Assembly: GCA_028284925.1 (NCBI GenBank)
Contig: JANQQT010000093.1
Location: 1 to 64,000 of the forward strand
Direction: 5' to 3'
DNA: 64,000 bases
Origin: Phycisphaeraceae bacterium
Lineage (GTDB): Bacteria > Planctomycetota > Phycisphaerae > Phycisphaerales > Zrk34
Positions 45,026 to 61,250 of this stretch are shown in pieces. The translations under genes and the position numbers were made by a program. The first letter of the stretch is position 1; each line of letters opens with the position of its first letter. Under the pieces are notes generated by a model. It ran no database searches and was not told the DNA's origin. It worked only from the letters and a program-made list of their open reading frames with translations.

Positions 45026-45288
45026 GCATATGTCCTCTCTTGATTTTCTGATTGACCAACACCCTCAGTCCGCCATCCAGACCCCGCCATTTCGTTTGCG
45101 ATTGTACCCATCATTCACTACCGGTCAAAACCGCTTCCTTCCCCGAGGATTCGACCATAATTCACAACCGTCCAGCATTGATTTGTACTCCAATTCTGCA
45201 AGAATACTCTCAATTCAGTAAGAGTTTGAACAAAAAATCGCCACAAACACCTCCATACTTGAAATCTAAGATCTCAGAGGAAACGCCC

Positions 45289-45732
45289 ATGGATATCAAG
45301 GTACCCGCGTTCTCGCTCATGACCCTTTTCATCATGGCAACCATCACAGGATGTGACAGTGAAGTCAAAATCTCCGACTATGACCTGGAATACCTCGACA
45401 TTGTTGGTGTAGAAAAGCTCGCCAAACAAAAGAAAACCGTCATCGTCGATGTACGGAAGTCCGTTGACTACCAGAAGGGCCACATCCCCAACGCGGTAAA
45501 CATTTTTTCACCCGATATTCGCCGACATGACCCCCGCCTGACATCCGCGCGCACCATTATCGTATATGGCCAGAGTCAGGGTGACTTCAAGGTCCGCCAC
45601 GCCGCGAAGAAACTACTCGCCATGAATTATCCCAATATCCGAGTCTTTGCAGGCGGTATCATCGACTGGACTGCCGCCAAAAAGCCGCTCAACAAGCCAC
45701 TCGATAAAGAACTAATTAGGCCAAACAGGTAA
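45289..45732 (+). CDS. Rhodanese-like lipoprotein lacking the active-site Cys
   Basis: The protein is about 147 aa. The lipobox ITGC gives Cys22 as lipidation site. The rhodanese fold is recognisable (KTVIVDVRKSVDYQKGHIPNAVNI, RVFAGGIIDWTAAKKPL). The active-site loop reads IVYGQSQGD, with Gly where rhodaneses have Cys, so sulfur transfer is unlikely and a binding role more plausible. AGAGG precedes the ATG. It is divergent from eno and converges with the large LamG gene. Confidence 0.8.
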   Translation: MDIKVPAFSLMTLFIMATITGCDSEVKISDYDLEYLDIVGVEKLAKQKKTVIVDVRKSVDYQKGHIPNAVNIFSPDIRRHDPRLTSARTIIVYGQSQGDFKVRHAAKKLLAMNYPNIRVFAGGIIDWTAAKKPLNKPLDKELIRPNR

Positions 45733-45744
45733 CTCATCCTCCCG

Positions 45745-48700
45745 TTACGGCCCCTCCACCCACCGAACATTAAACGATTCATTTTCTTCCTGAGGCTCAT
45801 TACCACCGTAAACGGCCGTCGCCTGGTTGTCGGTAAACGCCTTGTTGTAGATCGCCACACGATGCAATGTACCCAACCACGGCAATGTATCGTCACCCGA
45901 ATTCCCCAATACCAACGGAAATGCCGAGTTCCATCCCGATAAATCGCCCGCTGATGCTTTAGAACCGACATTGGTCCCATTGTAATAAACTTTGCCGTTC
46001 GCCCCGTCATACGAGAGAATGAGCTGGTCCTTCTGACCAATACTCTGTCCGAGACTTGCCAGTACCGAATCCATTCCACCCGCCGTATCCACACTCCCGG
46101 TAAACGAATCCTGCGCAACACTCAATGAAAAATTTCTATTGGTGGAGTCCGACCCATAATTGACGAGTCGTCTCGCATTGGCATCCACCACGCCCGGCGT
46201 GTAATCCACGACAATCGCCACTCCCTTGGACAATCCGATTGCCGTTGCGATCTTAGTTGCCGCCGAGCCGGAACTGATGGACGTTGCGCTGTCCAGCGTC
46301 AATCCGCCACCGCCTACCCAGGTCACAGCACTGGTATCCGCAATCGTAAGATCAAGCGCAAGACCCGATCCACTCGTATCCACAACCGAGGCGCCCTTTG
46401 ACACGCCCGGCGAATTACCCAACATCACCCGCCCTACCTGTGTTGCATCCATCCCGGCATTAAATATCCTCACATCGTCAATCCACCCTTCAAAGTGATT
46501 GTAAAGTGAATTCACCGTACCATTTCCGCTCCACATCGTATCAGCCCCAAACACAAATGGTTCCGTATTCCCTGATCCCCCCGATGTCGTCCCCAGTCCC
46601 CCGGTATAACTATCCTCACTCACCAGTGTCCCATTCACATAGAGTTTCAAACCCTTACTACCGAAACAGAGAGCTACGTGGTACCAGACACCCGAGGATA
46701 AACTTCCCATCCCATCGCTGGACTGAAGCGTATAGGACGCTGAGGCGCTTTGAAATCGGACGCGTAACGTCGAACTATCCAGATAGATATGCACATGTCC
46801 GCCGTTGTCATATCCACTCGAGTCCTTGGAAAACAACCCCTGATCCCCATTCGTATCATCAGATTTGAACCAGAAACTGATCGTCCCATCATCCAACAAA
46901 AGACTCGACGCATGGGGCAATTCGACGTAATCGTTATTCCCATCAAAGTATGCCGAGTTCCCAATCTGGCCCGTCTGCGCCCATAAAGCGCCTTCATATT
47001 GGCCATTCAGAGTGCCAACGCTATCTTTCGCCGGAGGAGTAGCGACTGCAGTCAAATTGACATCCAGATGAATCTGACCGGAATTGGTGACTTCGATATC
47101 GTCATAACACAAAATACGACCGTAAAATACACCCGAACTCGAAACCTTAAAATCATCGCGCGTCCAAACGTCCGCGGCAACAACTCCGTTTCCGTTTATC
47201 AAAAATTCCCGGTCAGCAATCTGATAAATCACCACGCGCCCTGTGGCCTGCGAGTCTCCATTCAACTGCGCAGAATCCGTCACCTCCGAGTCCTTGTCAA
47301 GGTAAAGTGTCAAGCTCGATCCCACAGGCGTCACAATTTGCGCGCTGTCCTGCATTTTGAAATCGTCATCTACCAATACTCGAATATGACCGCTAATCGT
47401 AACCACTGCGGATCCGCTAATCGTCAGATCGGCAAAGGTTTGATCGCTGCTCCACGTCGTGTTACTACTGATCGTCACATCACCCTGGTTAGCAGGCATT
47501 CCGCCAGGCGCCGACACGCTTGACGCTATCGAAATCGCCTCATCCAATACTCCTTTCGTTCCGGTCACCTCACCATCATCCTCCAAATCGAATCCATCCT
47601 CATCGTCCCCGCCAACACCCACATATGCGTCTCCCTTGATCACCGCATCATCCAAAAGATGGATTTCATCGTCCGATGTCGAATTCGTCGCGACGTATGC
47701 CGCCTGCCCTACGTTTCCACCACCGTAAACACCCGCCGATGAGTCATAGCTGTCGACGACACCAAACCCTTCAATACGCACATTGTCCCTCGCTGCCATA
47801 CCACCACCTTTATCCGCCCCGTCAAGTGCCCAATGGTGCAAGAGCGTCGGTTCCGGTTCCACTACCTCATTGAACTCATAGAGCGCAACAAGCTCCGGCG
47901 CACTGTTGCCACCGGTATCGTTCGTCACACTTACATAATCAAGCGTAGCCGTCCCCAACGTGCCTGAATTCTGCGATGTTACGGCCAACCCGACATAAAC
48001 GACGCTCGACAACCCGCTTAGCGTAAGATCACTTCCCACCTGTACCCAGGTACCTGAAACCCCCGTCGCCGACTCATACCCCCGGATCACATCACCCTCT
48101 CGCACCACACGCACCCAATATGGAGCGTTTGAAGCAGCTCCTGATGTATAAGAAGAAGACCCGCTGGTCGCCGATCTCCTTAACCAGATCGAACCGATAT
48201 CCCTGGTTAAACCCATAAATCCGTGCCGCGAGTCATCCGCCAGACTCTCGCGAACCATTACACCGGCCTTCGCATACGCTGATGTACTCGGAACAGCCGT
48301 CACTCTCGCGACAATTTCTCCATCATCAACAATCGTCTTATAGACAAATCGAAATTCATCAGAATAATCATTGATGTTCGTACCCTGAGCAATAACGGTG
48401 TACTCTCCACTACTCACGCTATCACTCCCCGCGGGCGACGTATAACCGATATCCAAACCCACCCACGCGCGCCCCGGTTCGGCAGCCCACTCGATTGAAC
48501 GCTTTACAATGTCCAGACAAGTCGCATTCAACGCTGCAAAGTCCATCGAGCCTCCACCAAACGGCAACGCGACCCGCCTAGACGCAGCCGTACCACCACC
48601 ATACAGACTTGCCCCCGTCTCCATCACCATCAGATTCTCTGTGTTGGTATCCCCTACCCTCGTCGCCAGAACTGTCGCCCCGCTCGCCATCGACCCGCTC

Positions 48701-49530
48701 GCCTGCAACAGTGGTTGATTGGAGCTCATTACCACCACCGTCCCCAAACTTAAGTTCTGGGTAATGTAATGAGAATTATCCGTAATGTTGATCGAGTCAC
48801 TCGTGAAATTACTACCACTTGACGAAAAACCAAAGTCATTCAGTAACGCCTGTTCCTCATGCACGACGCCAATTCCGACACTCTTTAACTTCGTATTGAC
48901 ATAACTGGAATAAACATCCTCAGTAACGTATACCACATCCGATGAAGCAACCGCAGCGTCATAAGCACTCTGTGAATCCGATGCAGTAATCGCCGTCACC
49001 TCATACCCCCACCCCTCAAACTTATCCTTGCGCAGCGTATCCTGAGAACTCAAACTCGACGCATCGGGCACTACAAATAGAAGCCGGGTCGCCGTCTCCT
49101 CAGCTCCCGCCGTCACCACGGCTCGCACGGTATGGGTTACGCCATCCACCGTTGCCGTCACCGTAATCAATACAGTATCCGACGTGTCATCAGCCAAGTC
49201 CCCATCTCCGCCTGATTCGTCACCGTCTACCCCTGTAATCGTAAAATTCCCATCCGCAGTCGTATGCGTTGCCCACAATCCGTTGGACATCTGCGTACGC
49301 CAATCGGATGTCGCCCGAATATACTCCACCGCCATCTCCATCCCTGTCTCCGCCAGAAAGCGTGCCTTACCCACCTTGCGAATATTCTCAGCGATGGGTG
49401 TTGTCGTCGTAGCCCCACCCAGAAAACCCAACGCCAACACCATTACCGTTGCCACTGCTCCCATGACAAGAACCAACGCGATCCCTCGCTCCCGATGCAT
49501 GAACCGATTTGGGGATGATCGCCTAACCAT
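45745..49530 (-). CDS. Giant GspK/PilX-like pseudopilin with LamG domains
   Basis: The protein is 1261 aa. The N terminus (RERGIALVLVMGAVATVMVLAL) is a prepilin-type signal of the GspK/PilX kind, which lacks the Glu5 of major pilins, followed by KARFLAETGMEMAVEY. Then come a ThuA/GATase-like domain (about 145-345), a DUF1349-like beta sandwich (about 370-540), a bactofilin-like beta-helix part (about 690-800), and LamG domains (about 850-1035 and about 1060-1240). PilX/GspK proteins cap pilus or type II secretion tips; LamG domains bind carbohydrates or proteins. A tip adhesin is my inference. AAGGA precedes the ATG. It ends the pseudopilin operon. Confidence 0.8.
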   Translation of the reverse strand: MVRRSSPNRFMHRERGIALVLVMGAVATVMVLALGFLGGATTTTPIAENIRKVGKARFLAETGMEMAVEYIRATSDWRTQMSNGLWATHTTADGNFTITGVDGDESGGDGDLADDTSDTVLITVTATVDGVTHTVRAVVTAGAEETATRLLFVVPDASSLSSQDTLRKDKFEGWGYEVTAITASDSQSAYDAAVASSDVVYVTEDVYSSYVNTKLKSVGIGVVHEEQALLNDFGFSSSGSNFTSDSINITDNSHYITQNLSLGTVVVMSSNQPLLQASGSMASGATVLATRVGDTNTENLMVMETGASLYGGGTAASRRVALPFGGGSMDFAALNATCLDIVKRSIEWAAEPGRAWVGLDIGYTSPAGSDSVSSGEYTVIAQGTNINDYSDEFRFVYKTIVDDGEIVARVTAVPSTSAYAKAGVMVRESLADDSRHGFMGLTRDIGSIWLRRSATSGSSSYTSGAASNAPYWVRVVREGDVIRGYESATGVSGTWVQVGSDLTLSGLSSVVYVGLAVTSQNSGTLGTATLDYVSVTNDTGGNSAPELVALYEFNEVVEPEPTLLHHWALDGADKGGGMAARDNVRIEGFGVVDSYDSSAGVYGGGNVGQAAYVATNSTSDDEIHLLDDAVIKGDAYVGVGGDDEDGFDLEDDGEVTGTKGVLDEAISIASSVSAPGGMPANQGDVTISSNTTWSSDQTFADLTISGSAVVTISGHIRVLVDDDFKMQDSAQIVTPVGSSLTLYLDKDSEVTDSAQLNGDSQATGRVVIYQIADREFLINGNGVVAADVWTRDDFKVSSSGVFYGRILCYDDIEVTNSGQIHLDVNLTAVATPPAKDSVGTLNGQYEGALWAQTGQIGNSAYFDGNNDYVELPHASSLLLDDGTISFWFKSDDTNGDQGLFSKDSSGYDNGGHVHIYLDSSTLRVRFQSASASYTLQSSDGMGSLSSGVWYHVALCFGSKGLKLYVNGTLVSEDSYTGGLGTTSGGSGNTEPFVFGADTMWSGNGTVNSLYNHFEGWIDDVRIFNAGMDATQVGRVMLGNSPGVSKGASVVDTSGSGLALDLTIADTSAVTWVGGGGLTLDSATSISSGSAATKIATAIGLSKGVAIVVDYTPGVVDANARRLVNYGSDSTNRNFSLSVAQDSFTGSVDTAGGMDSVLASLGQSIGQKDQLILSYDGANGKVYYNGTNVGSKASAGDLSGWNSAFPLVLGNSGDDTLPWLGTLHRVAIYNKAFTDNQATAVYGGNEPQEENESFNVRWVEGP

Positions 49531-49551
49531 GAATTGCTCATCCTTTTCCTA

Positions 49552-50208
49552 TCACCCGCGATTACGCAACGCCGCGGCGCCGATCGCCGTACTCGTCGTC
49601 CCCCCCGCATCCAACGTCATTCGATAACTAATCAGGTAGGTCGTAGTCGGATCCCCATTGTCATCAAAGCTCATCGTCCATGCCGTGACACCCTCGCCCC
49701 ACACCTCCTTGGGGAAGTAGCTTCCACTCTTAAGCGCAGTTGTAACGGTGTCGAAATTATCCGTCAGCTCATACGCCGTATCCGCAGCCGTCACCGCCGC
49801 CTCGCTCCATCCACTTGGAAACGTTCCCACATACCCCGAAAGCTCATCCGTCGAACCATCAAGCTCTATTCGTCGAAGCTCAGAAATATTGGGCTTGCCG
49901 TCAGCCCTCGTATCTTCTATCCAAAGCACAAGATAACCATCACCGGAAGCCAGAACCTGCTTAGCCCCCCGCATAGCCGAATCAAGCCTCGCACCAATCG
50001 TCTTATGCCTTACCACCAGATTCCGCATTCCCTTCTGACTCGTCAACCCATATGTGCTGGATACCATCATCGCCGCTACGCCAAGACCCACCAATCCGGT
50101 AATCCCCAGCGCAAGCACCAACTCAACAAAGGTTACGCCCGCCATTCGCCTGACAGTCCGAGATTGAAAATGCCTACATCCCAATCCAATCATCCTTCTC
50201 TTATTCAC
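49552..50208 (-). CDS. Type IV pilin/type II secretion pseudopilin (GspJ-like)
   Basis: The protein is up to 218 aa. MAGVTFVELVLALGITGLVGLGVAAMM is a prepilin signal, cut after Gly with Glu at +5. The rest is a variable beta-rich domain: GDGYLVLWIEDTRADGKPN, RRIELDGSTDE and MSFDDNGDPTTTYLISYRMTL. It resembles GspJ-type minor pseudopilins. I use the GTG at 50208, which has GGAAG upstream; an ATG at 50193 and one at 50145 just before the signal are alternatives. The gene lies 20 bp before the LamG pseudopilin and 31 bp after the next pseudopilin. Confidence 0.78.
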   Translation of the reverse strand: MNKRRMIGLGCRHFQSRTVRRMAGVTFVELVLALGITGLVGLGVAAMMVSSTYGLTSQKGMRNLVVRHKTIGARLDSAMRGAKQVLASGDGYLVLWIEDTRADGKPNISELRRIELDGSTDELSGYVGTFPSGWSEAAVTAADTAYELTDNFDTVTTALKSGSYFPKEVWGEGVTAWTMSFDDNGDPTTTYLISYRMTLDAGGTTSTAIGAAALRNRG

Positions 50209-50239
50209 TCAACTTCCAAAACGAGTGACTGCCCCTGCC

Positions 50240-50758
50240 CTACTGAGGCTCTGCAATAAAACGCTCGACTGTAAATTCACGTCCACCGCGACTCGTCACC
50301 GTCACCACGACCGTAATGCCATCCACAGACTGCCCCAGACTCGCCACACTCATTTGTCCAGCGGTCATGGAAACCGACCGAGTAAACCCTTGAAACTCAT
50401 CCGGAAGCAAGACCCCCTTCGCATCGCGCAAATCCCCAGCCGTCTCGCCGTAACCGTGGTAATCATCAAGGCTGTCAAAATCAACTGCCGCCGACTCTCC
50501 GCCTTCCGCACCCATCGTTAGTGTCGCCGTCGAATCAAAATAAGGCATCGGCATCAAACGCTCGACCATGGATTCGCACAGCATCATGCCCCGCTCGGTT
50601 TCTATTCCCGCATAAGCATGCATCTGCCCTGATACGATTGCCTGCGAAATCGCCAACACGGATAAACCCAACACCACACTCGCCATCAATACTTCCGCAA
50701 GCGTAAATCCCGCGCCTCGACCACCGTGCCGCCCACATTTGTGACCATCCATTTCCAT
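50240..50758 (-). CDS. Type IV pilin/type II secretion pseudopilin (GspI/PilV-like)
   Basis: The protein is 172 aa. GAGFTLAEVLMASVVLGLSVLAISQAIVSG is a typical prepilin signal, cut between Gly and Phe with Glu at +5. It resembles GspI/PilV: an ERGMMLCESMVERLMPMPYFD stretch follows the helix, which is common in these proteins. The gene is first in a three-gene minus-strand set of minor pseudopilins, divergent from another pseudopilin gene at 50997. The set probably forms the tip complex of a type II secretion or pilus-like machine. Confidence 0.82.
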   Translation of the reverse strand: MEMDGHKCGRHGGRGAGFTLAEVLMASVVLGLSVLAISQAIVSGQMHAYAGIETERGMMLCESMVERLMPMPYFDSTATLTMGAEGGESAAVDFDSLDDYHGYGETAGDLRDAKGVLLPDEFQGFTRSVSMTAGQMSVASLGQSVDGITVVVTVTSRGGREFTVERFIAEPQ

Positions 50759-50996
50759 TTTCGATCATCCCACAAATCGCCGGAGACTCCATATTCTTAT
50801 CGACTACATCACATGGCACTTTGAATACCCATATATGCCAAACGCTCCATATGCCGCAGATACCCGCCCCCATCAAAATTCGAGATCCGGCTGTAACGAT
50901 CTTAACGATTGCGACGCACTCAATTTTTCATATATCCACCGCTGATATCACTCACCCCGCATACACCAGGGGAAAGAACACGATATTCATAAATAT

Positions 50997-51509
50997 ATGT
51001 ATTCCAACACCACATCGTTACGCGCTTTCTCTCTGGTGGAACTCCTCACGGTCATTATGGTCATCGCCGTCGCTTCCGCACTCGCTATACCCATGATCAG
51101 CAACGGCCCTGCCAATGAACTTCGCGCAGCCGCCGACTTACTTGAAGCAGACCTCTCCTTCGCCAGAATGAACTCCATCACCGATGCTTCCAACCCACAC
51201 ATCGTGGTCTTCGATTCGACCAATCACAGATACCATATCGCCCTAGCCGCCACCCCAACCGTCCCCATTGCCAATCCTGTTGACAACACTCCCTACACCC
51301 TTACGTTCGGCCAAGGTAGATCAAAAGCCATACCGAACGTCACCATCCAGGCCTACTCCCTTGATGGCGATGACCGTATTCAATTCGGGCAATATGGCCA
51401 GATCGACCAAACGTCCGATGCGACCATCACGCTCTCCGCCAAATCAAAATCAATTACACTCACCATCAAAGCGTCCACCGGCGAAACCACCATAGGCGAC
51501 ATCAACTGA
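50997..51509 (+). CDS. GspH/FimT-like pseudopilin
   Basis: The protein is 170 aa. FSLVELLTVIMVIAVASALAIPMI is a prepilin helix with Glu at +5, but the residue before the cut is Ala rather than Gly (LRAFSLVE), an unusual processing site. ELRAAADLLEADLSFARMNSI and the C-terminal beta domain resemble GspH/FimT. It is divergent from the other pseudopilins, sharing about 240 bp of intergenic DNA, and completes a set of H-, I-, J- and K-like minor pseudopilins. No strong ribosome site precedes the ATG. Confidence 0.8.
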   Translation: MYSNTTSLRAFSLVELLTVIMVIAVASALAIPMISNGPANELRAAADLLEADLSFARMNSITDASNPHIVVFDSTNHRYHIALAATPTVPIANPVDNTPYTLTFGQGRSKAIPNVTIQAYSLDGDDRIQFGQYGQIDQTSDATITLSAKSKSITLTIKASTGETTIGDIN

Positions 51510-57104: not shown

Positions 57105-60100
57105 TCACACACCCAAAGAAAGTGAATAACACCTCACCGTCTTATCCCAACTCCCCGATACCGCCAAACTTCCACTACGACCGATTCGAACACTCGAAAC
57201 CCAAGCACTATGCCCATTGATCGAATCCAAACACGTCTTTACCTCCAAATCCCACAACTTCATCGCTCGATCATCCCCACCGGTCATTAAGAATCGCCCC
57301 CCCTTATCTATGCTTATCCCGTTCACCCGATGGGGATAATGCCCCTCAAGTTCACCAAGATATTCACACGTTTTCAGCGACCAATATCTAATCCTCCCGT
57401 CATCCCCACCACTGATAACCCACCCCAGTCGCGCGCTCGTCTGTATCGCATTGATGCGACATTCCTGGTCAGATGAAATCTGTTCACACGCCCCCGTTTC
57501 AAGAGACCACAAACGCCATCGACCATCCCAGCTCCCCGTCACAATTCGGTTCTCATCTCCATCCACATACGCAGCACAAACCACACGATCTTCATGACCT
57601 TCAAACACCCTCAAACATCTTCCCGCCTCCAGATCCCACAGCCTGGCCGTGCCGTCATCACTCGCAGAGATAGCGACCGTCTCATCCTTATTCATCCCGA
57701 CCCAACGAACCGCCCCTTGATGACCCTCATATATCTTGACACATTGACCCTTGACCACATCCCATAAACGCATAAGGTTATCCGCATCGCCACTCAACAC
57801 ACGCCTGCCATCCCCACTCATTGCAACCGACCAGATCGAGGCGGGCGAATCAATCCTTGCAGCACAACTCCCACTTTCCATATCCCATATCCGTAACGAC
57901 ATGTCTGTCCCACCGGAAACCGCCCTACCATCATCCCCACTGCTTGAAAACGCAAATACCGGACCTTCATGCCCACTCAGCACTCTCCGCACCTTCACCG
58001 TTGCGCCAGCTTCTCCACCACCTGCATGGGCCGAAACATCGGACTCGCGCGCAGACACGGCATCCTCACCAATAGCGTCTCCGACACTATTCTCCTCAGA
58101 CATCATTGACATCTGTTGCTCAAGCCCCTTCGCTCGCTTTGCCAATTCCCCTTCTCGAGCCGCAAGTCGCATTTCCGCTGCCTCAACAGCCGACTCTCGC
58201 CTCGTCAAAACGTCTACCGCTTCCGCCGCCGCCTCTTCGACCGACCGATCAACCTCGACGCCACGGGCAACCACCTCTTCCTCTCTTACTCGAACACGCT
58301 CCTCTGCCTCAGAAACACTGGCATTTCGCTGCGCCATCTGAGTTTCAAAGTCGTCCCGCTCCTTTTCAAAAACAGCCTCTCGGTCTTGCAATTCCAATCG
58401 TGCATCTTCGAGTTGCCGCCTGATACTCTCAAGCTCCTTCTCTCGGGACTCAAACTCGCTTTGGACCTCCGCTTCCCTCTTCTGTAACGCCGCGCGCTTC
58501 ACCTCCACCTCCGCCAATTGCTCCTCCACCGCCTTATGCTGATCCAATTCCGCCGCTGACATATCACGTTCACGCTGACTGAGCGACTCAACAAGTATCT
58601 CACAATCTGAAGACTTTGACTCCACCTCTGCGGAACGTGCCTTCAATTCTTGGGATTTGCGATCAACTTCCTCTTCACGCAAATCCAACTCCTGGCGGCG
58701 AACTTTGATCTCCTCTTCCAACGCAATCTCTTGCTGCCGCAATTCACTCACACGATTCTCATGTTCCTTTGTAATTGCCGACGCCTGATCATTCGCCTCC
58801 CTTGCAACTCGTTCATTTTGGTCGCGCTCGGCATCCATCGCTTCACGCATCGCCTCGAGCTTCAATCGTTCTTCCCCCAGCTCCTCCTGCTGCTTCGCTA
58901 TCGCACCCATCGACTCACCAAGCGTTTCTTCCAATACCTCCAATTGCTCACGCTCAGCCTCCAGCCCCTTTTCCTTCGCCTGAATCTCATCACTCAAGGC
59001 ACTCAAACCCAACGCCGTTTCCGCCAATGCAGACTCCTGCTCTGCCGCAGAGGCTTCGCGAATCTTCAATTCCTCTTCCCGCCGAACCACATTCGCCTCA
59101 CGATCATCGACATTCACTGATGCCACCCGTTTCTCCATATCGATGACATTCTGTTCGCGTTCTTCGACTCCCCTTTGCAACTCTGCGACTACGCGCTCCT
59201 GATCATCAACTTCAACCTTACGCTCCTCGCAGGCCTTCTCCCGATCCTCCAATTCCCCCAGACGAACGTCCAATTCGGCAGCCCGTTCATCAATCCGAAC
59301 ATTCTCCGCCTCGATTGACGCCTCATACGCCTTCGCAGATTCCTCTTTTTTGGCCACTTCCGCCTGCGCAAGTTCAATCTCCGCTTGGCCGGCTTCTACC
59401 CCTTTGCGTTCCTCCTCTATTTTCAATGCCAACTGTTCCAGTTCGATTGCCTTGGATTCCAGCTCTTCATCAACCTCCCCTGCCTCCACTTCCCGCCTCG
59501 CCAATTCCGCCTCCTTCTCTTCAAGTGTTGCCACGCGCGCCGCCAAAGCACCCTGCTCGGCCGTGACATCACTAAGCAGAGCTTCCAAATCAACTTTCTC
59601 CTTCTCCAACTCACGTGACACCCCCCCCACCTCTTCAAGTTCTTTTTGCAATCCCTTCAGACGCTCATCTAACTCTACTTCTCGACTGGCAACCTCCTCC
59701 TCCTTAGCCTTCAATTGCTTACGCGCCTCCGCCAGTGCTTTGTTTTCTTCACCCTTACTGTGATCATACTCCGCCGCCATCTCCATGAGTCGCTTATGGT
59801 GTTGGTCCTCCAACTCCGTGATCCTGGCCTCTAACGCATTCACCGCCTCCCCATGATCCGCTTCCCTGGAACGAAGTGCTTCCTCAAGCCCCGCCCGCTC
59901 TTCTGCAAATTGGTCGGCCTCACTTTCAAGCCTCTCGATCTCCTCCCGGCACCCGGCAATCTCCTGCTCCAAATCGTTGCATCGACTGCGCTCATCTTCC
60001 AGCGACTGCCCAAGCTCTTCTGTTAGTTGAACGTTTTTCTCGCGCAGCCCGCTAATTCGTGCTTTATACTCCGTCTCTACCGATTTCATACGCTCATCAA

Positions 60101-61250
60101 ACGACTTTTCCTTTTCAGCAAACTCTACAGCCACCACTTCAGCATCTGCCATAAGTGCCGCCTGATCCACCTCACCCTTAGTCACCTTTTCCTCACGTTG
60201 TGATAAAGCTTCCGCACGCGCCTCGAGTTCCGCTTCCTTCTTCTCCTGCCTTTGACTCGCCCCCTCAAACTCTTGTTCAGCCTTCGACCGGGCGGCGCCC
60301 AACTCCGCCTCAATGGCCTGCATTCGTTTTTTGAAGGTCGATTCGACCTCAGCTTCGCGTAAGGACAGTTCACGCATACGGCTGTCTAATTCAATAGATT
60401 TTTTCTCGAGTTTCGCCTCTTCTTTCGTTAGTTTCTTTTCACTCTCTGACAATTGGCTTTCCCGATCAGCCAAGCCACGCTCAATCTCTGTCGACTTCGC
60501 CTCAAGATTCGCAAGCTCCCGCTGACGATCATCCAATTCGCGTTCGACTCTCTTACGATTCTCTTCCAATTGCGACGCCTCACGCGCCTGCTCCGCCCTC
60601 AACGCTTCGAGCCTTTGTTTCTCTACCTCTATTGCCTGCCGCTCCCGCTCCAATTGACCCAATTCCGCACTTATGGCTTTGGCGTTTTCGCCTTCATTCG
60701 CGTCCGCCCCCTGAATCAATGAATCATGACTACCCACCGGCGTCGACATCGGATCTTTCTGCACCACCCCAGCAATCCCTCCAGTGTCGCCACCCAACTC
60801 AGACGTCATCGAACTCTTTGGCTGAATGAGAAAACGTTCTCCACACGCCTTGCACTTCGTCCGCTTGCCCAGCTTCGAAATGGGGACCATGTAAGTAGCG
60901 TGACACGATCCACATTGAACCTCACAAATACTTCCCCCCATCTCACCTCCACCGCTCACACCCAGGGGCCCTTCAACCCGAAACTTCTTGTGACAATGAC
61001 CACACTGTCCAACATCACCTAATTGTGACAGACGCGTCGCATATGCCACCTTACAAAACGGACAGGCAATCATCGTCCATCGCATTCGTGCAGGCAGCTT
61101 TCCAAGTCGACGCTCGGAAAGACGAAAACGTACATTGTCTCCACAACTCTCACATATGCGATCATGCCCAAGATAGCGCCAATCCATAGACACTTCGTCC
61201 TGACATGACGGACACTTCGCGGATACGTTACTGGAGGTCAAACCTGACAT
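57105..61250 (-). CDS. Giant protein: three zinc ribbons, long coiled coil, WD40 propeller
   Basis: The protein is 1381 aa. Three MJ0042-type zinc ribbons start it: Cys13/16-33/36, 63/66-83/86 and 113/116-133/136, exactly 50 residues apart. Then about 900 residues of Glu/Lys/Arg/Leu-rich coiled coil follow, with almost no Pro. The end carries seven WD40 repeats (LRIWD, MRLWD, ARLWD, WRLWS, IRYWS, MKLWD, VRCYS), one propeller. No signal peptide or membrane segment is seen, so it should be cytoplasmic. It may be a long scaffold or a structural filament; the function is unknown. Confidence 0.8.
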   Translation of the reverse strand: MSGLTSSNVSAKCPSCQDEVSMDWRYLGHDRICESCGDNVRFRLSERRLGKLPARMRWTMIACPFCKVAYATRLSQLGDVGQCGHCHKKFRVEGPLGVSGGGEMGGSICEVQCGSCHATYMVPISKLGKRTKCKACGERFLIQPKSSMTSELGGDTGGIAGVVQKDPMSTPVGSHDSLIQGADANEGENAKAISAELGQLERERQAIEVEKQRLEALRAEQAREASQLEENRKRVERELDDRQRELANLEAKSTEIERGLADRESQLSESEKKLTKEEAKLEKKSIELDSRMRELSLREAEVESTFKKRMQAIEAELGAARSKAEQEFEGASQRQEKKEAELEARAEALSQREEKVTKGEVDQAALMADAEVVAVEFAEKEKSFDERMKSVETEYKARISGLREKNVQLTEELGQSLEDERSRCNDLEQEIAGCREEIERLESEADQFAEERAGLEEALRSREADHGEAVNALEARITELEDQHHKRLMEMAAEYDHSKGEENKALAEARKQLKAKEEEVASREVELDERLKGLQKELEEVGGVSRELEKEKVDLEALLSDVTAEQGALAARVATLEEKEAELARREVEAGEVDEELESKAIELEQLALKIEEERKGVEAGQAEIELAQAEVAKKEESAKAYEASIEAENVRIDERAAELDVRLGELEDREKACEERKVEVDDQERVVAELQRGVEEREQNVIDMEKRVASVNVDDREANVVRREEELKIREASAAEQESALAETALGLSALSDEIQAKEKGLEAEREQLEVLEETLGESMGAIAKQQEELGEERLKLEAMREAMDAERDQNERVAREANDQASAITKEHENRVSELRQQEIALEEEIKVRRQELDLREEEVDRKSQELKARSAEVESKSSDCEILVESLSQRERDMSAAELDQHKAVEEQLAEVEVKRAALQKREAEVQSEFESREKELESIRRQLEDARLELQDREAVFEKERDDFETQMAQRNASVSEAEERVRVREEEVVARGVEVDRSVEEAAAEAVDVLTRRESAVEAAEMRLAAREGELAKRAKGLEQQMSMMSEENSVGDAIGEDAVSARESDVSAHAGGGEAGATVKVRRVLSGHEGPVFAFSSSGDDGRAVSGGTDMSLRIWDMESGSCAARIDSPASIWSVAMSGDGRRVLSGDADNLMRLWDVVKGQCVKIYEGHQGAVRWVGMNKDETVAISASDDGTARLWDLEAGRCLRVFEGHEDRVVCAAYVDGDENRIVTGSWDGRWRLWSLETGACEQISSDQECRINAIQTSARLGWVISGGDDGRIRYWSLKTCEYLGELEGHYPHRVNGISIDKGGRFLMTGGDDRAMKLWDLEVKTCLDSINGHSAWVSSVRIGRSGSLAVSGSWDKTVRCYSLSLGV

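Follow-up and report, generated by a model that had tools for sequence, protein, structure and literature searches.

A giant LamG-bearing K pseudopilin in a putative type IV filament tip cassette of a Phycisphaeraceae bacterium

The window analysed here is a stretch of 64,000 nucleotides from a Phycisphaeraceae bacterium, namely contig C300 (JANQQT010000093.1) of a 4.9-Mb draft genome that is 91.7% complete (our own genome, G000). At positions 45745-51509 it carries four genes for minor pseudopilins of the H, I, J and K types, and the K protein has 1261 residues, which raises the question of what a pilin-like protein of this size is for. Our results suggest, with a probability of roughly 0.6, that the four genes form a stand-alone (orphan) tip cassette of a type IV filament (HIJK), in which K serves as a multi-lectin tip adhesin or receptor. 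An original prediction, made from the sequence of this stretch, had already grouped the four pseudopilins and given K this length, and the open reading frames agree with it.

The four-gene set and its conservation

The giant K/X-like putative tip pseudopilin (45745-49530, minus strand) follows the I/PilV-like (172 residues, 50240-50758, minus) and J/PilW-like (218 residues, 49552-50208, minus, GTG start) minor pseudopilins. Because the gaps are only 31 bases between I and J and 21 bases between J and K, I-J-K looks like one operon. The H-like minor pseudopilin (170 residues, 50997-51509, plus) has a prepilin-type N-terminus and is divergent from I-J-K. The 238-bp spacer between H and I (50759-50996) could be a promoter region that both directions share; no sigma-70 consensus was found there, and promoter and terminator scans of the locus gave no more matches than in shuffled sequences.

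In the leader of H, the residue in front of the predicted cut is Ala instead of Gly, and the protein continues with FSLVE. H matched the GspH model PF12019 with E=0.0038, below the cut-off, and also ComGD (1.6e-7) and GspH (3e-6), both below the curated cut-offs. The sole profile matches of I and J were weak N-methyl motifs, plus PilV for I (E=0.016). Position +5 is Glu in H, I and J and Leu in K. The window thus holds the four genes together with a K that lacks Glu5, the combination by which an H-I-J-K set was recognised.

For the conservation of this set, 61 genomes were searched, consisting of our own and relatives of the same order. Some match to K was found in 48 of them and, by our count among the matches listed, the pilin part together with the alpha/beta part in 16 (5 of 9 genomes of the family of the window, f1, and 11 of 15 genomes of family f6). 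Of 294 genomes drawn evenly from the phylum, eight matched K residues 1-352 at E<=1e-15; five of these have the pilin part (all f1 or f6) and three the alpha/beta part only. Relatives of K were found in Phycisphaerae, Phycisphaeraceae and other planctomycete metagenome-assembled genomes, and in the complete genome CP087563.1. At 30 of 33 loci all four genes are present and H lies on the strand opposite to the other three. In seven cases a contig already counted recurs, which leaves 26 distinct loci, and since 23 of these keep the four-gene arrangement, it is not due to chance. The exceptions are L046 (K alone), L075, whose contig starts within K, and L079, which lacks H and has I, J, K and another, small K.

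Tandem pairs of giant K genes, both with pilin N-termini, were observed at L039:6687-15076 (1308 and 1493 residues), L040:4520-12882 (1311 and 1469), L070:8926-16802 (1315 and 1357) and L071:6471-14830 (1310 and 1463). In our own genome, two more tandem K-type N-termini are found at C74:14815-17333 (open frames of 634 and 645 residues), and this pair is a probable second orphan pilin cassette.

Architecture of the giant K protein

Domain borders in K, which lies on the minus strand throughout, were set by homologue alignment, structure models and splice tests. The protein begins with a prepilin leader (residues 1-16, 49483-49530) ending in HRERG, although a start at Met11 is also possible. Cleavage is predicted at the junction HRERG/IALVL, after which comes a long hydrophobic N-terminal pilin helix without Glu5 (residues 17-80, 49291-49482; Leu21). 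With the LamG, DUF1349-like and beta-helix domains described below, K has the features of a modular pilin. Structure models indicated pilin beta strands at residues 81-145 (49096-49290), and the complete pilin helix and strands were seen in the full-length model of a homologue of 1083 residues. The GspK model NF037980 matched residues 14-89 of K (E=5e-5, 22.9 bits versus a cut-off of 130), and 16 of 17 K homologues also matched this model. A Pfam scan found no T2SSK domain in the giant K.

At the other end of K, residues 1253-1261 (45748-45774) form a conserved C-terminal strand with a W-x-E motif. We collected 31 K-type proteins, comprising 27 giants of 1071-1493 residues and four short members of 430-787 residues, and W-x-E stands at the C-terminal end of 28 of them (exceptions L053, L078 and L080). 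This last strand is present in both structure models and may complete the pilin fold as its final strand. The ComZ structure (PMC6561018; this paper, like PMC9934059 and PMC8179133 below, is cited from excerpts) and the conservation of the tail suggest that the strand would join the pilin sheet.

Between the tail and residue 545, K appears to hold two LamG domains and a beta-helix that are nested in one another. The first strand of LamG-B (residues 545-558, 47857-47898) is followed by the first strand of LamG-A (559-574, 47809-47856), a beta-helix inside LamG-A that resembles DUF7305 and ice-binding-protein solenoids (575-830, 47041-47808), the remainder of LamG-A (831-1036, 46423-47040) and the remainder of LamG-B (1037-1243, 45802-46422). 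LamG_3 (PF13385) matched K at 2.1e-32 and was found in 17 of 17 homologues, which places K in the LamG/ConA-like superfamily, and DUF7305 was found by Pfam in 8 of the 17. Scans of the whole of K with Pfam and NCBIfam gave LamG, the weak GspK match and sub-threshold matches, and nothing else.

The contiguous LamG domain of AbnA (chain residues 638-846) aligned with 196 residues spread over positions 480-1182 of the model, that is, K 541-1243, so the first strand and the body of LamG-B are split by about 480 residues. LamG-B matched this arabinan-binding domain with a Z of 21.7 and a root-mean-square deviation (rmsd) of 2.7. In the model of the 1083-residue homologue, the same AbnA domain spans 359-1067, LamG-A matched the CBM40 of a sialidase over 377-855 (Z 19.4, rmsd 2.5, 171 aligned residues) and the match to an ice-binding protein spans 390-637. 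The beta-helix of the window K also matched ice-binding-protein solenoids in the fold search, including FfIBP (4nu2).

In the splice test of LamG-A, each of 680 possible 30-residue segments was joined to the LamG-A body, and the profile used for scoring was built from 78 LamG segments that are not nested. The top-scoring segment ended at residue 576 with 274.0 bits (mean 264.9, standard deviation 1.85). For LamG-B, the reference was one non-nested protein of our own genome and 890 ends were tried. The best end in the window K was residue 555 with a score of 211 (mean 189.6, standard deviation 3.4), which is the expected strand, and among 12 homologues the expected strand was best in six, a segment with both strands in one, and a segment elsewhere in five. 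Moreover, LamG-A has no inserted helix in the homologues L076 and L077. An arrangement in which the beta-helix is inserted in LamG-A and LamG-A in LamG-B is thus supported, at the level of models and sequence, by the two structure models, the splice tests and the homologues without the helix.

The lists of fold matches were filled by jelly-roll domains. No pilin or ThuA-type chain was among the matches listed, which excludes neither, and the named matches in a viral structure library were LamG proteins only. A toxin reading was rejected, as the matches to clostridial neurotoxin binding domains and one weak Pfam match in a homologue reflect only the shared LamG fold.

The pilin part and the nested block are separated by an alpha/beta domain (residues 146-352, 48475-49095) and a variable slot (residues 353-544, 47899-48474). 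Searched by profile against PDB, Pfam and NCBIfam and with hhalign, the alpha/beta domain gave nothing firm. It had been labelled ThuA-like, but neither Pfam nor NCBIfam found ThuA (PF06283) in 13 family members, and hhalign against nine ThuA proteins gave a probability of 9.7%, though colinear over 176 columns, so that the label stays unconfirmed. The slot matched 3mep_A, which we take to be a structure of the DUF1349 family, with a Z of 20.9 and an rmsd of 2.2 over 168 aligned residues (model 294-477, K 355-538). Searches by sequence gave no Pfam match to DUF1349 in K and no PF07081 match in our own genome; the fold match of the model supports a DUF1349-like beta sandwich in the slot of the window K. 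Together with the beta-helix and the LamG domains, this sandwich had been named in the original prediction, whose list of domains was mostly right; it did not mention that the LamG domains are nested, that one slot is variable, that H is divergent or that the set is widely conserved.

The slot lies between the alpha/beta domain and LamG-B, and we sorted what occupies it in the 27 giants: nothing in five, a DUF1349-like module in five, a LamG in seven, a split LamG in three, a beta-helix in three and something unassigned in four. In one of the three with a beta-helix, L081 (8271-12608), the helix precedes a predicted beta-propeller of the LDL-receptor/DUF5050 type. Mean pairwise identity was 45% in the pilin helix, 41% in the pilin strands, 44% in LamG-A and 44% in the last nine residues, and was lower in the slot (19.5%), the linker before the tail (19%) and the beta-helix (29%).

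Proposed function, filament machinery and rival explanations

HIJK complexes are reported to occupy the tips of filaments, where K is the topmost subunit, and to be interchangeable between systems (PMC9934059). If the cassette works in this manner, the prepilin-type N-termini of H, I, J and K would be cleaved by the prepilin peptidase, the four proteins would form an initiating complex with K, lacking Glu5, at the very tip, and one of the machines of the genome would assemble the filament. The roughly 1100 extra residues of K would thereby be exposed at the distal end of the fibre, that is, the alpha/beta domain, the swappable module and the beta-helix inside LamG-A inside LamG-B. There K would most likely bind polysaccharides or glycoconjugates on particles or cells, and the swappable slot may tune this binding. 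We favour an adhesin or receptor because K combines its pair of LamG domains with a rigid solenoid and a module that can be exchanged, and glycan binding is suggested because the fold relatives bind arabinan and sialic acid.

The original prediction depended on pilus or type II secretion genes being present elsewhere in the genome, and ATPases, platform proteins, secretins, prepilin peptidase and PilT are all there. In our own genome we found 16 matches to the ATPase family of the type II secretion system (T2SS), 16 to the platform domain, five to secretins and two to prepilin peptidases. PilT was found in 61 of the 61 genomes searched, so it does not discriminate as a marker of the partner machine. 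The machine of contig C77 was considered as a partner and is not favoured, as its PilM-like protein has no match in the K-positive genome G039. PilY1 (PF05567) was found in none of the 61 genomes, but the positive control also gave no match. Elsewhere in our own genome, an open reading frame of 4231 residues on contig C34 (L146:513-13208) encodes a giant secretin that combines 35 Secretin_N stretches with one secretin domain at the C-terminus; its periplasmic stack may be very long.

Several points weigh against a tip adhesin. As to the partner machine, no filament-assembly gene adjoins the cassette, and the other filament clusters of the genome have their own minor pilins. A protein as large as K would need to pass through an outer-membrane secretin, and a shared LamG fold is no proof of sugar binding. 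The structure models have a mean pLDDT (predicted local distance difference test) of 79.0 and 75.9 and a pTM (predicted template modelling score) of 0.39 and 0.37; single domains in them are credible, and the packing of the domains is uncertain. Tentatively, we further propose that such HIJK cassettes of Phycisphaerales re-tip a shared type IV pilus machine, for which the universal PilB-PilT-PilC would be the best candidate. The lectin rod would have grown in a terminal loop of the K pilin, the slot would set the ligand, K would replace a PilY1-type adhesin, and tandem K proteins would be alternative tips.

Besides the tip adhesin, a substrate-recognition part of a secretion machine had been offered as a role for K; of these two, the adhesin has the better support. 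The N-terminal match of K to the GspK model and the several T2SS-type clusters of the genome would fit a cassette placed at the pseudopilus tip of a type II secretion system, with the K domains recognising cargo or gating the secretin. This is unlikely, because a separate T2SS-type operon on contig C113, with an ATPase and a platform protein, has its own pilins and its own K of 546 residues with T2SSK domains, whereas the giant K lacks these domains and its extra domains are lectin-type and not the GspK alpha domain. It is also improbable that K stays anchored at the surface or in the inner membrane as a multi-domain protein, using the pilin signal as an anchor only and never entering a fibre. 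The size of the giants, the lack of adjacent assembly genes and locus L046, in which K has no H, I or J nearby, agree with such an anchor, but K is co-inherited with H, I and J in 23 of the 26 distinct loci, and its most conserved long parts include the pilin helix and the pilin strands.

Thermus ComZ is a GspK-like pilin into which a solenoid resembling FfIBP is inserted, ahead of the final strand of the pilin fold (PMC6561018). As a further rival explanation, K would be a DNA-uptake tip receptor of this kind, in which the beta-helix would be the original functional domain. The helix of K matches ice-binding-protein solenoids, the fold class that ComZ resembles, PilT is universal, and the smallest member, a protein of 430 residues (L079:6815-8107), consists of pilin, helix and tail only; a phmmer search of this protein against PDB gave no match. 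However, the giants L076 and L077 lack the helix in LamG-A, and the helix is less conserved than LamG-A (29% versus 44%), which makes a ComZ-like receptor very unlikely.

Relation to known systems and neighbouring genes

K is similar to GspK in its N-terminal model match, the absence of Glu5 and the position of its gene after I and J, but it is about four times longer, has no T2SSK domains and belongs to a stand-alone cassette in a genome with a separate T2SSK-bearing K. Verru_Chthon proteins A-D form a four-gene cassette. The N-terminal 70 residues of K resemble protein A, as TIGR02600 matched residues 16-88 only, with 19.6 bits, far below the curated cut-off of 332.3, so that K was not classed as a protein A; this model of 1296 positions was matched by 1 of the 17 homologues at E<=0.01. 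H matched the model of protein D (TIGR02596).

PilC of Streptococcus sanguinis is a pilin with a ConA-type lectin (PMC9934059). It resembles K in that a pilin N-terminus bears a ConA/LamG-type lectin for display at the tip, but it keeps Glu5, has an Ig-like and lectin module added C-terminally and is of about 53 kDa, whereas K lacks Glu5, has 1261 residues with nested domains and is a member of an H-I-J-K set. Like the K proposed here, the PilY1/PilC tip adhesin is a very large protein that minor pilins present at the tip (PMC9934059); unlike K, PilY1 is not a pilin. ComZ (PMC6561018) shares with K a GspK-like pilin, a large beta-solenoid and the likeness to FfIBP (4nu2, matched by K), and K also ends in a conserved strand. 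K adds the alpha/beta domain, the slot and two LamG shells around the helix.

Modular pilins are widespread and include LamG-bearing ones, LamG_3 (PF13385) being among the common modules, so this much is already known; the most extreme one named in the excerpted part of that 2021 survey has 860 residues (PMC8179133). Our literature searches found no paper on giant nested pilins in planctomycetes, and judged by them the novel features appear to be the size of K, its two-level nesting of LamG domains, the slot with variable content and the conservation of an orphan cassette. If our explanation is true, K shows to what extent the tip subunit of a type IV filament can grow. Nesting, as opposed to an end-to-end chain, keeps both ends of each domain close and could let a pilin bear a long rod without breaking the pilin fold. 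The attachment organelles of environmental planctomycetes are poorly known. In the natural set of 31 K-type proteins, a single slot varies while the scaffold stays fixed, so that the specificity for tip ligands becomes testable in these bacteria.

Among the other genes of the window, a Rhodanese-domain protein (45052-45732, plus) adjoins K and is convergent with it. A protein of 1381 residues at 57105-61250 (minus) has a long Glu-rich, coiled-coil-like stretch, and its C-terminal part gives the impression, from the sequence, of WD40-like repeats.

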